From: Sphingobacteriales bacterium | GTDB lineage: Bacteria; Bacteroidota; Bacteroidia; Chitinophagales; CAIOSU01 | Length of the DNA stretch: 64,000 nt | Reading direction: 5' to 3' | NCBI GenBank assembly: GCA_027483645.1 | Contig: JAIXUD010000006.1 | Span: 62,001 to 126,000, forward strand | Shown: in pieces, positions 2,987 to 33,921 of the stretch | How the letters are laid out: every line of letters begins with the position of its first letter | How positions within the stretch are numbered: the stretch's first letter is position 1 | Notes under the pieces: model-generated | Told to the model about the DNA's origin: nothing | What the model saw: only the letters and a program-made list of their open reading frames with translations | The model's database searches: none | Made by a program: the position numbers and the translations under genes

Positions 2987-3052
2987 AAGCAGTCTTGTGT
3001 CCTTCGACAAAAGCTCAGGATGACATTTCTTGTGTCTCCTATCTTGTGTCTT
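2987..3052. repeat. Heptamer array (CTTGTGT type) with CTTCGACAAAAGCTCAGGA half-repeat
   Basis: A GCAGTCTTGTGTC block (2989-3001), then a single copy of the CTTCGACAAAAGCTCAGG repeat (3002-3019), then two more CTTGTGTCT units. It lies directly upstream of the uvrA promoter-like box. The same CTTGTGT units precede nadK and flank rbfA. Confidence 0.65.
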
Positions 3053-5938: not shown

Positions 5939-6161
5939 GTATCAAGTAGTGAGTATCATCCTTCGGCAAAAGCTCAGGATAAAATCCTCAAGACTGCTTC
6001 AAGGAGCGTGTCATGGTGAGCGGAGCCGAACCATCCATAATGTAGGTGGCATAACTCCTCTTTCTATGACTGGTAATACGTGACAATGTTTCGTGACCGT
6101 GTTGCGGATGGTTCGGACCGGAGTTTACCCTGAGCTTTTGCCGAAGGGCGCACCATGACAG
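5939..6161. repeat. Composite inverted-repeat element between uvrA and nadK
   Basis: This fills most of the 316-base gap between uvrA and nadK. An 18-bp perfect inverted pair, CTTCGGCAAAAGCTCAGG (5961-5978) and its complement (6129-6146), encloses a second pair, GCCGAACCATCC (6025-6036) with GGATGGTTCGG (6107-6117). GTCATGGTG / CACCATGAC pairs also occur at 6010 and 6151. GTATCAAGTAGTGAG repeats precede it and AGACTGCTTC lies at 5991. No ORF is inside; it looks like a non-autonomous dispersed repeat. Confidence 0.7.
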
Positions 6162-14756: not shown

Positions 14757-14981
14757 CGTCATTGCGAGGAATGAAACGAAGCTTTTCGCGAAGTTGAATG
14801 ACGCGGCTACTTTTCTCACTGCTTGCAGTAATCCCTACCCCTGAAGCATAATCCCCGCAAACCAGAGAACTAATACATAATACGTTTTATTGCAGCGGTT
14901 ACAGGCACTCACTGCCGCCTGCATGGGATTGCTTCGTCACTCAATTGCGCGAAGGGCGCAAATTCGTTCCTCGCAATGACG
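14757..14981. mobile_element. MITE-like inverted-repeat element, short copy 1
   Basis: A 225-base element starting CGTCATTGCGAGGAA and ending TTCCTCGCAATGACG, the exact reverse complement. The inner ends carry TTCGCG/CGCGAA blocks, and GGGATTGCTTCGTCAC lies at 14925. The centre has no ORF. It occupies most of the 387-base gap between the RsbW-like gene and serA. Similar ends flank 27392-27601 and the GIY-YIG gene copy at 31486-32023. Confidence 0.78.
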
Positions 14982-16078: not shown

Positions 16079-16343
16079 AGAGACTGTTTAAAATTACAAA
16101 ATAAGGTACATGTTTCGGGTCCCTCACCTAGCCTCTCCCAGGGGGAGAGGGACTTGTACACCTCGCCTTCGGCTCGTTTAATGCAATTCTATTTTTAAAA
16201 TTCTAAGCAAAACTTCTTGCCGAAGGCAAGGAGGCATAAGTCCCTCTCCCCCTGGGAGAGGTTAGGTGAGGGACACATAACACCAGTCAAATCCAGATCC
16301 CAAGAAATACAACTTAGTTGTCAATATATTTTAAACAGTCTCT
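16079..16343. mobile_element. MITE with terminal inverted repeats between serC and serA
   Basis: 16-bp perfect terminal inverted repeats, AGAGACTGTTTAAAAT (16079-16094) and its complement (16328-16343). CTCAG occurs on both sides (16076-16080, 16342-16346), compatible with a 5-base target duplication that partly overlaps the ends. Inside, a 35-base inverted pair (16119-16153 and 16240-16274, one mismatch) rich in CCTCTCCC/GGGAGAGG would form a long hairpin. There is no ORF. It fills the 337-base gap between serA and serC. Confidence 0.8.
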
Positions 16344-20084: not shown

Positions 20085-20090
20085 ATAGAT

Positions 20091-20120
20091 AGACACAAGA
20101 CGCAAGACACAAGACACAAG
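20091..20120. repeat. Heptamer array (GACACAA type) upstream of the LolC/E-like gene
   Basis: Units GACACAA, GACGCAA, GACACAA, GACACAA, G in exact 7-base register, seven bases upstream of the permease start. It is inverted relative to the array at 20188-20220, with a spacer of about 67 bases. Confidence 0.85.
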
Positions 20121-20187
20121 ATTTTTTGTGCATTGCAAATTGCTTGTTGAAGTTTATGAAATTCTTGGGCTTTCATCTAAAATTTTC

Positions 20188-20222
20188 AAGTCTTATGTCT
20201 TATGTCTTATGTCTTGTGTCTA
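20188..20222. repeat. Heptamer array (GTCTTAT type) overlapping the rbfA stop
   Basis: Units GTCTTAT, GTCTTAT, GTCTTAT, GTCTTGT, GTC. The final CTA (20220-20222) is the complement of the rbfA TAG stop, so the array ends inside the coding sequence. Confidence 0.85.
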
Positions 20223-20630
20223 AACTTCAGGGTTGTAGTGTTCGGTGTAGTCGTCAGGGTTTGTTTTCACATCCTTGGCGGGGTTGGCTTTCAATATGGC
20301 ATCAATGCGGAACACATCTTCTAGCGTTTCATCCAAAAAGAACTCCAAGCTAGGTATCACACGCAAGTTTTTGCGCAGGCGGTTGCCCATCTCGCGGCGT
20401 ATCTCGCTCACGTGCATTTTCAGCCCCTTCAGTACTTTAGCCTTATCATCGGCATTGAATACGCTCAAATAGAAACGGGCCACGAGCAAATCTGGTGTGG
20501 TTTTTACACCGGTAATAGTCACAAACGAAGTACCATAATAAGCCGTGCCGTTGCGTTGCAATACCTGGCTCATTTCATCTTGCAGCAGCCCTGCCACTTG
20601 TTTCTGTCTTCTAGTTTCCTCGTTTGCCAT
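20220..20630 (-). CDS. rbfA: 30S ribosome-binding factor A
   Basis: A 136-residue KH-fold protein that assists 16S rRNA 5'-end maturation and cold adaptation of the 30S subunit. Recognisable segments are RRQKQVAGLLQDEMSQVL at the start, VTITGVKTTPDLLVARFYLSVF, and IRREMGNRLRKNLRVIPSLEFFLDETLEDV, which covers the KH signature. Length is normal. The stop codon coincides with the end of a heptamer repeat array, so the last residues may differ between relatives. Confidence 0.94.
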   Translation of the reverse strand: MANEETRRQKQVAGLLQDEMSQVLQRNGTAYYGTSFVTITGVKTTPDLLVARFYLSVFNADDKAKVLKGLKMHVSEIRREMGNRLRKNLRVIPSLEFFLDETLEDVFRIDAILKANPAKDVKTNPDDYTEHYNPEV

Positions 20631-27391: not shown

Positions 27392-27601
27392 CGTCATTGC
27401 GAGGAATGACAATGCCGATTTTTCCATCGGCATTGGTATGACGAAGCAATCCCATGCCACGGAGAATGATATTCGCAAACAGCTGAGGCTAATCATGTAT
27501 TATGTATGTGCGCCTCGGTTAAGGAACTGCACTAGACTCGTGAAGGGATTGCTTCTTCACTCAATTGCGCGAAAGGCGCAAAGTCTCTCCTCGTAATGAC
27601 G
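27392..27601. mobile_element. MITE-like inverted-repeat element, short copy 2
   Basis: A 210-base element with CGTCATTGCGAGGAA at the left and CTCCTCGTAATGACG at the right. The inner GAAGCAATCCC (left, near 27441) faces GGGATTGCTTC (right, near 27545). A small hairpin lies between GCCGAT and ATCGGC in the left arm. There is no ORF. The right arm is nearly identical to that of the copy at 14757 (ATTGCGCGAAgGGCGCAAA). Confidence 0.78.
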
Positions 27602-30795: not shown

Positions 30796-31470
30796 ATGGC
30801 GCACCTTATCCTCGTACCCACCCCCATAGGCAACCTTGAAGATATGACCTTCCGGGCAATACGAGTATTAAAAGAAGCCGACTTAATACTTGCAGAAGAT
30901 ACGCGTACCAGTGGGTTTTTGCTGAAGCACTATGGCATCAGCACACCCATGAAATCGCACCATAAGTTTAATGAGCACCAATCTGTGGCCTACATTGTGC
31001 AGCAGATATTGGATGAGAAGAAGACCGTGGCTATGATAAGCGATGCCGGTACGCCGGGCATCAGTGACCCTGGGTTTCTGTTGGTACGGGAGTGTGTGAA
31101 GGCAGGCGTGGCGGTTGAGTGCTTACCAGGTGCCGCGGCACTGATACCGGCACTGGTAGTATCGGGCTTCCCTAGCGACCAGTTTGTATTTGAGGGTTTC
31201 CTGCCCGTGAAGAAAGGCCGCCAAACCCGCATGAAAGCGCTGGCAGAAGAGGAACGAACCATGGTGTTGTACGAATCCCCGCACCGCATCGGAAAAACGG
31301 TGGAGCAACTGGCAGAACACCTCGGTGCTGAGCGCGAAGCCTGCATCTGCAGGGAGCTAAGCAAGAAGTTCGAAGAGATTATCCGCGGTACGCTCACCGA
31401 ATTGGCAATACGTTGCAAAACCAAGCCGTTGAAAGGGGAGATAGTGCTGGTGGTGAAGGGGAAAGATTAA
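30796..31470 (+). CDS. rsmI: 16S rRNA (cytidine(1402)-2'-O)-methyltransferase
   Basis: A 224-residue SAM methyltransferase of the tetrapyrrole-methylase fold that methylates the 2'-O of C1402 in the ribosomal P site. The N-terminal LVPTPIGNLEDMTFRAI, the AEDTRTSG and SDAGTPGISDPG loops, and the YESPHRIGKT segment are intact. It lacks the extra C-terminal part of the E. coli enzyme; the short form is usual in Bacteroidota. Confidence 0.94.
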   Translation: MAHLILVPTPIGNLEDMTFRAIRVLKEADLILAEDTRTSGFLLKHYGISTPMKSHHKFNEHQSVAYIVQQILDEKKTVAMISDAGTPGISDPGFLLVRECVKAGVAVECLPGAAALIPALVVSGFPSDQFVFEGFLPVKKGRQTRMKALAEEERTMVLYESPHRIGKTVEQLAEHLGAEREACICRELSKKFEEIIRGTLTELAIRCKTKPLKGEIVLVVKGKD

Positions 31471-31485
31471 AAATTCTTACTTATC

Positions 31486-32023
31486 CGTCATTGCGAAGGC
31501 TTTTAGAGGGTTCCAATTACCCTTGCACTCTCAAAGCCTGAAGCAATCCCCCGCTACAAAGTATGATGTATCCTAACCGATGAACAATTTACTAACTTCA
31601 AGGTATGAAAAAAGGTGGCTATGTATATATTCTGACTAACGAACATCATACCGTGCTTTATGTCGGAGTTACTGCGAGCTTGAAGAAACGGATTCATGAG
31701 CATAGAGATAAGCTACACACCAACAGTTTTACAGCTAAATACAACATCACCAAATTGGTATACTTCGAAGGTTTTCATTCCATAGAAGATGCAATAGCGA
31801 GGGAAAAGCAACTCAAAGCAGGTTCAAGAAAGAAAAAAGAGTTATTGATTGAAGTGAAAAATGATAAATGGAATGACCTCTGGGAGGAAATACAGGATTT
31901 TTTTGATTGACAGGAGATAGGTTTTTTCCTGACGGGGGGGATTTATGCTTCGTCGCAGAGGATTGCCGCGGGCCATTAAAGTTCTACACTAAAAGTGAAA
32001 TCCCGCTGGCCCTCGCAATGACG
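31486..32023. mobile_element. GIY-YIG-bearing inverted-repeat element, full-length copy
   Basis: A 538-base segment from CGTCATTGCGAAGG to CCTCGCAATGACG. GCAATCC (31543-31549) on the left faces GGATTGC (31960-31966) on the right. The left arm has its own hairpin (AGGCTTTTAGAG / CTCTCAAAGCCT). The only gene inside is the GIY-YIG nuclease gene. The ends and internal motifs match the empty copies at 14757 and 27392, so this looks like the gene-bearing form of that family. Mobility is inferred. Confidence 0.65.
31605..31910 (+). CDS. Small GIY-YIG nuclease domain protein
   Basis: A 101-residue single-domain GIY-YIG endonuclease of the UPF0213-like group. GYVYIL (5-10) and YVGVT (19-23) form the paired motif, R29 and H31 in LKKRIHEH sit where the catalytic Arg lies, and E67 in AREKQLK is the metal-ligand Glu. 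No DNA-binding domain is fused; the charged C-terminus could contact DNA. It stands alone inside the inverted-repeat element 31486-32023 with about 130 bases of repeat arm on each side, suggesting it serves or depends on that element. Confidence 0.88.
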   Translation: MKKGGYVYILTNEHHTVLYVGVTASLKKRIHEHRDKLHTNSFTAKYNITKLVYFEGFHSIEDAIAREKQLKAGSRKKKELLIEVKNDKWNDLWEEIQDFFD

Positions 32024-32058: not shown

Positions 32059-33921
32059 ATGTGGCCTTTAACTCTAAATAGTTTAATTAAAGCGGCAATA
32101 CTGATAATGTATACACTTACATTATCGGGCTTGTTCATTTGGCAAGTAGCCGAGTTGGAAGGTAACACTTTTACTTTTTTCGATGCAGCGATTATTAGTA
32201 CTATAATTTTTGTAATATTTCCATCCCTCATCCAACTATTTATTCTAAGGAACCGTGACTTCCTCAGGCTGCACTTCATGGCTTGCGGTACAGGGCTTTT
32301 ACTAGCGCTGGCTTGGCCGCCGCTGCCTACAGCATTTATCATTTTCGGTGCGCTTTTGCCGCTGCTATATGTGGAGCATGTGGTGAGCAACCCCAATAGC
32401 AAATACTTCGGGCACAACTTCTTTAGGCTTAGCTATACGGCCATCCTCCTCTGGAACATTCTCACCACCTACTGGGTAGCCAATTCGCACATTTTCGGTG
32501 GGCTGTTTGCGTTTACGGCCAATACGTTTTTCATGTGCTTGCCGTGGTTTATGTTCCACCTTACCAAAAAGCGGTTTGGCGCGGGCATCGGCTATACATC
32601 GCTGGTGGTTTACTGGCTTGCATTTGAGTACCTGCACATGCAGTGGGATTTAAGCTGGCCTTGGCTTACGTTGGGCAATGCTTTTGCATCTGTTTACCCT
32701 ACCGTGCAGTGGTACGAGTACACCGGCCACTTGGGCGGTACCCTTTGGGTAATGGTGGTTAACTGTTTGGTGTTTTACGGTATTACCCATTTTGCTAAAA
32801 TACAGGCGTGGGCTGGCAGTCGTTTCAAGGTGGCCGATGCCAAGGCCCGTACTTATGCCAAAGCATTGGTAGTTACAGTTCCCTTGCTTCTGGTGCTTGT
32901 CCCAGTCGGCATTTCCTTGCTTATATATAACCAAAACAACCCCGATAACTTCAGCAACCTACCTACTACGCAGGTTACGGTGCTGCAGCCCAATATTAAC
33001 CCATACCATGAAAAGTTCTCGGCCAGCGCTGATGAGCTTTTGGATAAAATGATTTTGCTCTCTGAAAAAGGCATCACCCCTGAAACGGATTACCTCGTTT
33101 GGCCCGAAACCTCTATCCCGTCGCAGGTGTGGGTGGATAGGCCTTACCAATCGCGCATTATGCTGCGGGTAGCTGATTACCTGCACATGCATCCTAACCT
33201 TACGTTGATTACTGGTGCTATGGCACGCGAAAAATATGATTATCGCGCCACCACAACTACCCGCACGCATGTAAGCAACAGCGACACGCTGTTTTACGAT
33301 GTTTTCAATGCCGCGCTACAATTGGAAGACAGCCTGCCTGCGCAAGATTATCGTAAGAGCAAGCTGGTACCCGGCGTGGAGAAGATGCCTTACCCCGACT
33401 TGCTGGGGCTGCTAGGCGGCTTGGCTATCGATTTAGGGGGTATCTCGGGTAGCCTAGGCGAGCAGGCCAATCGTGAGGTATTTTTCAATAGAAAAGGTAC
33501 GGGCATCGCCCCCGTTATCTGCTACGAATCTGTTTATGGCGATTATGTTACTGGCTATGTGCGCAACGGTGCCGAGGCCATCTTTATCATTACCAACGAT
33601 GGCTGGTGGAGCAACAGCGCGGGCCACATACAGCACGTGCAGTATGCTTCATTGCGCGCTATTGAGACTCGAAGGGATATTGCCCGATCTGCCAATACGG
33701 GTATCTCCTGCTTCGTAAACCGCCGGGGCGATATATTACAAGCTACCAATTACTGGGAGCCCGCCGTTATCAGCAGTGCAATCCAGCTCAATAGCGAGCA
33801 AACTTTTTTTGTGCGCCACGGCGATTATATTGGTCGCTTTGCGGGCTATCTCTCCATTGCTTTTGTATTTGCCACACTCGTTAGGTGGAAGCGGAAAAAG
33901 GTGAATGCTCCCCTTAGTTAA
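32059..33921 (+). CDS. lnt: Apolipoprotein N-acyltransferase
   Basis: A 620-residue membrane enzyme that N-acylates the terminal Cys of lipoproteins. Seven to eight hydrophobic helices cover residues 10-285, followed by a carbon-nitrogen hydrolase domain with the Glu-Lys-Cys triad: Glu in VWPETSIPS (about 348), Lys in RKSKLVPGVEKMPY (about 433), Cys in PVICYES (about 488). A last helix anchors the C-terminus (about 592-612). It is longer than the 510-residue E. coli protein, mainly because of the N-terminal extension and hydrolase loops, as is usual in Bacteroidota. Monocistronic. Confidence 0.94.
   Translation: MWPLTLNSLIKAAILIMYTLTLSGLFIWQVAELEGNTFTFFDAAIISTIIFVIFPSLIQLFILRNRDFLRLHFMACGTGLLLALAWPPLPTAFIIFGALLPLLYVEHVVSNPNSKYFGHNFFRLSYTAILLWNILTTYWVANSHIFGGLFAFTANTFFMCLPWFMFHLTKKRFGAGIGYTSLVVYWLAFEYLHMQWDLSWPWLTLGNAFASVYPTVQWYEYTGHLGGTLWVMVVNCLVFYGITHFAKIQAWAGSRFKVADAKARTYAKALVVTVPLLLVLVPVGISLLIYNQNNPDNFSNLPTTQVTVLQPNINPYHEKFSASADELLDKMILLSEKGITPETDYLVWPETSIPSQVWVDRPYQSRIMLRVADYLHMHPNLTLITGAMAREKYDYRATTTTRTHVSNSDTLFYDVFNAALQLEDSLPAQDYRKSKLVPGVEKMPYPDLLGLLGGLAIDLGGISGSLGEQANREVFFNRKGTGIAPVICYESVYGDYVTGYVRNGAEAIFIITNDGWWSNSAGHIQHVQYASLRAIETRRDIARSANTGISCFVNRRGDILQATNYWEPAVISSAIQLNSEQTFFVRHGDYIGRFAGYLSIAFVFATLVRWKRKKVNAPLS

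Follow-up and report, generated by a model that had tools for sequence, protein, structure and literature searches.

Repetitive extragenic palindromic sequences of the CGTC class (CGTC-REPs), including dRS3 and the Rickettsia repeats RPE-4 and RPE-6, occur in five phyla and were described without a dedicated transposase (Di Nocera et al. 2013, PMC3733652). In the REPtrons and REPINs of REP-associated tyrosine transposases (RAYTs), a small nuclease gene is enclosed by members of a dispersed family of palindromes that also forms gene-free dimers. Miniature inverted-repeat transposable elements (MITEs) of insertion sequences (IS) are short gene-free copies that resemble a gene-bearing parent minus its middle and share its terminal inverted repeats. 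Here, a 538-bp element of a Sphingobacteriales genome is analysed, located at positions 31486-32023 of a 64,000-nt stretch (the window), in which the gene of a small GIY-YIG nuclease is enclosed by two inward-facing hairpins of a CGTC-tagged dispersed repeat. It shares some features with each of these systems and differs in others: REP/RAYT systems rely on an HUH (Y1) tyrosine transposase that cuts at a GTAG tag whereas the window has a GIY-YIG enzyme and a CGTC tag, and, unlike MITEs of DDE IS, the window family holds no DDE gene, its parent gene encodes a GIY-YIG nuclease and no target duplication was found.

The element occupies the gap between two genes which we take, by eye from their protein sequences, to be rsmI-like and lnt-like. 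It is listed here with its parts and with the two gene-free members of its family in the window:

31486-32023, plus strand: gene-bearing element, 538 bp, in the gap between the rsmI-like (30796-31470) and lnt-like (32059-33921) genes
31478-31485, plus strand: outer extension, 8 nt, consensus AAAAYGNN adjoining CGTC; poor match here (ACTTATC preceded by T)
31486-31549, plus strand: left end hairpin; tag CGTC 31486-31489, stem ATTGC 31490-31494 pairing with GCAAT 31543-31547, tail CC 31548-31549
31605-31910, plus strand: GIY-YIG nuclease gene, 101 aa (Pfam PF01541, E 1.5e-14)
31960-32023, minus strand: right end hairpin, inverted; CGTC 32023-32020, stem ATTGC pairing with GCAAT 31966-31962, tail CC 31961-31960
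14757-14981, no strand assigned: gene-free (MITE-like) element, 225 bp, with arms of the L033 parent type
27392-27601, no strand assigned: gene-free (MITE-like) element, 210 bp

A preliminary description of the window, made from its letters, had reported three elements of a common plan, the longest with a 101-residue GIY-YIG gene. The coordinates, the lengths of 225, 210 and 538 bp and the gene were all recovered, and the plan holds, although the right end of 27392-27601 is CGTCATTACGAGG, which has one mismatch, and 14757-14981 carries AGTAATCCC in place of GCAATCC as its inner left motif. In the 538-bp element, the gene is intergenic, and both adjoining genes and both hairpin ends are intact. 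The residues Y8, Y19, G21, R29, H33 and E67, which are of catalytic type, are invariant in the family alignment, and a model of the 101-aa protein shows a confident GIY-YIG fold (predicted local distance difference test, 89.6) whose best match among solved structures is 1zg2 (UPF0213). The fold and the sequence motif are shared with UPF0213 or YhbQ-type proteins (1zg2, 1ywl) and with the UvrC N-domain, for which we know of no association with repeats.

Six one-mismatch matches to the tag were found in the 64-kb window, which is weak evidence when taken alone because 3.4 are expected by chance. Genome-wide, exact CGTCATTGCGA is present in 59 + 59 copies in 4.27 Mb against 0 + 1 for the reversed control, and the repeat family is therefore far above chance. 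Region-by-region assessment, covering most of the 118 ends, recovered 56 inward-facing pairs, most of them 200-230 bp long, with a few nested and sharing an end. Three of these elements hold a gene, and in all three it encodes a close GIY-YIG paralogue (100, 79 and 66% identical). Elements of 405-479 bp were judged by eye to contain nested repeats and no gene; in three of them (L013, L178 and L180, 461-479 bp), a GTCATCCTGAGC-like repeat is nested within a CGTCATTGCGA pair.

The gene-free copies were proposed at the outset to be internally deleted offspring of a gene-bearing parent, and this is borne out by alignment to the parents minus their gene. The 30 best alignments score 48-94, whereas copies with shuffled inner sequence reach at most 25, and the best gene-free copies match the gene-bearing elements lengthwise once the gene is taken out. 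For example, the window element 14757-14981 scores 85.5 when aligned to L033, a gene-bearing element, without its gene, compared to 15 or less in 20 inner-shuffled copies. Two parent types can be distinguished, with L032-like and L033-like arms, each having its own gene-free look-alikes. The parent-offspring likeness of gene-bearing elements and gene-free copies of about 200 bp is thus an observed property of the family. Across the 56 elements, direct repeats at the junctions are no commoner than in shuffled pairs, hence no target duplication was found.

The same sites were compared in congeners, where the search for empty sites suggested by the preliminary description gave instances. The rsmI-lnt gap holds the 538-bp element in the source genome (G000), a gene-free element of the same family in G002 and a decayed remnant in G005, and it is empty in G003 and G004. 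Similarly, the element 27392-27601 is missing from its gap in G002 and G004. The family is hence polymorphic for insertion within the genus.

The association of enzyme and repeat extends well beyond this genus. A set of 228 GIY-YIG loci was assembled from genomes of the order, GTDB species of many phyla and alphaproteobacterial genomes. Flanks of 450 bp were compared for 212 close relatives with enough flanking sequence, 562 neighbouring control genes and 13 distant GIY-YIG genes. In a test made without presupposing any tag, an inverted-repeat score of at least 20 was reached by 86/212 close GIY-YIG genes, 21/562 neighbouring genes and 1/13 distant GIY-YIG genes. The same GTCA tag pointing outward on both sides was found at 89/212, 18/562 and 0/13 loci, respectively, so small GIY-YIG genes do lie between such ends much more frequently than control genes, a check which the preliminary description had suggested. 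In 32 genomes with a close GIY-YIG gene, GTCATTGCGAG was present in 30, in up to 410 copies, with controls near zero, a count which is illustrative as the 32 loci were hand-picked from 80 after their flanks were known. The two genomes lacking GTCATTGCGAG have GTCATCCTGAGC and GTCATCCCGAGC around their GIY-YIG gene. An order-wide count is a fairer test because of this selection: a strong gene (E <1e-20) was found in 10 of the 12 genomes with at least 10 ends and in 37 of the 138 others (Fisher p 1.7e-4, with counts made by hand, thresholds set after viewing the tables and related genomes that are not independent). The abundance of the repeat thus tracks the gene, as would be expected from the initial reading. 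In the order genomes G137 (79 ends) and G067 (13 ends), the best GIY-YIG match has an in-frame stop, suggesting enzyme decay after amplification of the repeat.

Within the source genome, four more distant GIY-YIG paralogues were found. One (L034) is enclosed by GTCATCCCGAG ends and another (L035) by GTCACCCTGAG-type ends, both being GTCA-tagged inverted repeats, while L036 is flanked by a GTCATG-tagged repeat on a single side and no tagged inverted repeat was found in the flanks of L037. Congeners add the end types GTCATGGTGAGC and GTCATCCTGAGC around GIY-YIG genes. The presence of several enzyme-repeat pairs in one genome makes a genome-wide coincidence less likely. L037 (G000:C10:304653-304874), a distant GIY-YIG gene, is itself flanked by two copies of GGTTCGAATCCTACAGTGCCCAC, which resembles a tRNA 3′ end, as if inserted at a tRNA gene.

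A common rule for the ends emerges from these loci. GTC is the commonest of all 64 three-base tags preceding outward hairpins, and among GTC hairpins the stem starts with AT in 291/421 and the tail with C in 307/421. Of 565 outward GTCAT tags, 52% are followed within 60 nt by the complement of their next three bases plus ATC, compared to 1.9% when triplets are swapped between tags; therefore the stem is truly paired and varies by compensation. By this rule, GTC is followed by a stem that starts with AT and continues in variable paired bases, then by a loop, by AT and finally by C. Alphaproteobacterial tails read CCA, and many of the stems there are classic CGTC-REP stems. Stem type also clusters on the protein tree, with 43 changes against 65.6 upon shuffling (minimum 62), on a poorly resolved tree of 99 columns. 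The signal comes from the mixed set, from the order set and weakly from the alphaproteobacterial set; no clustering was seen in the GTDB-only set (10 changes, with 9.9 expected), as almost every stem there is ATTGC. Enzyme clade and stem type hence tend to go together.

Folded as DNA, the left end 31486-31549 gives its stem with a z of -2.85 and the right end 31960-32023 has a z of -1.91; two of six single ends fold clearly better than their shuffles in this weak test. Outside CGTC, the consensus of 108 ends is A-rich at -8 to -5, with Y at -4 and G at -3, and the two bases at the element junction are about random among the ends of this genome. The AAAAYGNN extension is strong in the source genome and not in other groups, and is for this reason not taken as a defining feature.

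The repeats share several features with the CGTC-REPs. Both have a CGTC or TGTC tag, a stem starting with AT, a short tail (CCA in Alphaproteobacteria) and head-to-head dimers, and GIY-YIG genes were found between repeats of CGTC-REP type. The window ends differ by a 5-bp terminal stem, a long structured loop and a CC tail, whereas CGTC-REPs have a stem of 8-9 bp and a loop of 4-5 nt, a format which, together with the CCA tail, is present at many alphaproteobacterial loci. RAYTs had been invoked as a precedent for small nucleases serving palindromic repeats, a comparison that stands as an analogy: the fold and the tag differ, and both systems coexist in the source genome, with the RAYT-type loci that were read located in other repeats.

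A Neisseria gonorrhoeae GIY-YIG protein shows 47% identity to the window protein over 90 residues and scores 95.6 bits against the family profile A1. Its gene lies among dRS3-type hairpins, GTC-ATTCCCGC..GCGGGAAT-C, in a record with 256 GTCATTCCC tags. It is presumably the published Ssn gene. The Ssn enzymes, published in 2025 (Nat Commun), are reportedly site-specific single-strand DNA GIY-YIG nucleases with a repeat named NTS and a link to transformation, which serves here as a lead and not as evidence. Given this Neisseria homologue and its surrounding dRS3 hairpins, the window enzyme very probably belongs to the Ssn family. Common to both are a small single-domain GIY-YIG subfamily and a cognate dispersed GTC-AT hairpin around the gene; the Neisseria gene sits in a long hairpin array, whereas the window has a compact unit of 538 bp, with ends that match and with gene-free offspring. 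The Neisseria gonorrhoeae records NZ_CP119140.1 and NZ_CP119142.1, of about 2.17 Mb and hence chromosome-sized, are labelled as plasmids in PLSDB. No report linking GIY-YIG enzymes with palindromic repeats was found in the literature searched on that subject, and literature searches for the repeat sequence itself gave unrelated papers only. What appears to be new is the transposon-like arrangement of parent and offspring, as well as the connection with CGTC-REPs.

The reading which we consider somewhat better than evenly balanced is that of a minimal mobile or amplifying unit, consisting of a GIY-YIG gene between two inward-facing cognate hairpins, with gene-free copies served in trans. The nuclease would recognise the hairpin in single-stranded DNA during replication, transformation or repair and would cut it near the tag, as is inferred from its GIY-YIG fold, its conserved catalytic residues and the activity reported for Ssn. 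Host repair could then copy the released or broken hairpin unit to another place or join it there, leaving no target duplication, and the gene-free copies would be served in trans. Least secure is the idea that cutting might drive the spread of units with and without the gene, their ends being joined by repair and not by a transposase. More broadly and more tentatively, small GIY-YIG nucleases may be the dedicated mobilising enzymes of a very large class of GTC/AT-stem repeats found across phyla, in the way that RAYTs are for GTAG REPs, with each clade reading its own stem and no target duplication being left.

Several points weigh against this mobile-unit reading. Cleavage, excision and transposition are what we infer here, and we know of no strand-joining activity in a 101-aa nuclease. 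The enzyme-stem pairing is loose, as stem type changes often on the tree, and the gene-free ends, folded as single strands, mostly do not outdo their shuffles. Homologues without such repeats, named beforehand as a possible refutation, do exist, in the distant subfamily (0/13) and also among the close relatives, where about 58% of the genes, more than half, lack a matching tag pair within 450 bp. Two of the 12 genomes of the order that are rich in the repeat, G059 and G114, show the converse, with many ends and no strong GIY-YIG gene, while 10 have one. In G002, which is 78% complete and has 17 ends, no close GIY-YIG paralogue was found. Finally, the rsmI-lnt gap could be explained by an internal deletion, by gene gain in a resident repeat or by two separate insertions. 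The initial reading as a whole is thus partly supported: its anatomy and associations stand, and the nuclease may cut or move the hairpin.

Rather unlikely, in our view, is a domesticated nuclease controlling DNA uptake or recombination, which would keep the repeats nearby by selection or linkage and have no role in their spread. The Neisseria homologue would suit this explanation, being 47% identical and encoded where dRS3 repeats are dense, in a genome that holds 256 GTCATTCCC tags, and the Ssn repeat is reportedly tied to transformation. However, short gene-bearing units with matching ends, gene-free derivatives and empty sites resemble a selfish unit, and several units that differ in their tags are found together in one genome. 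Still less probable is a homing-like gene, in which older repeats would have spread by other means and the nuclease would cut the hairpin, its gene being copied in by recombination between the arms, with the repeat serving as the address. The rsmI-lnt gap, gene-bearing in the source genome and gene-free in G002, would fit with such an event, as would the absence of any target duplication found, and GIY-YIG is a classic homing-nuclease fold (PMC1564403). Homing endonuclease genes, however, reside in an intron or intein or split their own site, whereas the window gene does neither: the presumed recognition site is uninterrupted and both hairpins are intact. Moreover, gene-free elements are missing from sites in congeners, so the repeats move too, and there are two parent types, each with its own gene-free look-alikes. 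Hitchhiking, in which a RAYT or an IS transposase would move the ends as REPs and the GIY-YIG gene would have been caught by chance, is scarcely credible despite seven Y1_Tnp (RAYT-type) matches in the genome. The five Y1_Tnp loci that were read are set in other inverted repeats and lack GTCA tags, which already disfavours RAYT mobilisation of the ends. Moreover, each of the three genes found inside elements encodes a GIY-YIG protein, the association is seen again in other phyla, with stems matched to the enzyme clade, and no target duplication was found.

The window contains further repeats. At 16110-16290, another dispersed palindromic repeat, GTCCCTCACCTAGCCTCTCCC...GGGAGAGGTTAGGTGAGGGAC, is found, which lacks the GTC-AT tag and of which about 20 genomic copies are listed. 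A lone hairpin, GTCATGGTGAGCGGAGCCGAACCATC, lies at 6010-6038 and a GTCATCCTGAG tag at 3014, both of types which enclose other GIY-YIG genes in congeners. A short AAGACACAAGACACAAGA / TCTTATGTCTTGTGTC repeat at 20090-20230 is common to many places with congeners.

Small GIY-YIG nucleases are probably the enzymes that serve one of the commonest classes of bacterial repeats, and they may also move it. If they are indeed its mobilising enzymes, this would represent a transposition system outside the DDE, HUH, tyrosine and serine recombinases. The origin of a common bacterial repeat class is now directly testable, with an enzyme pairing, an explicit hairpin rule and a natural series of parent, offspring and empty sites. 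The results further suggest that the likely target of such a nuclease can be read from its own flanks, which would be useful if these enzymes, as is said of Ssn, cut single-stranded DNA at chosen sequences.
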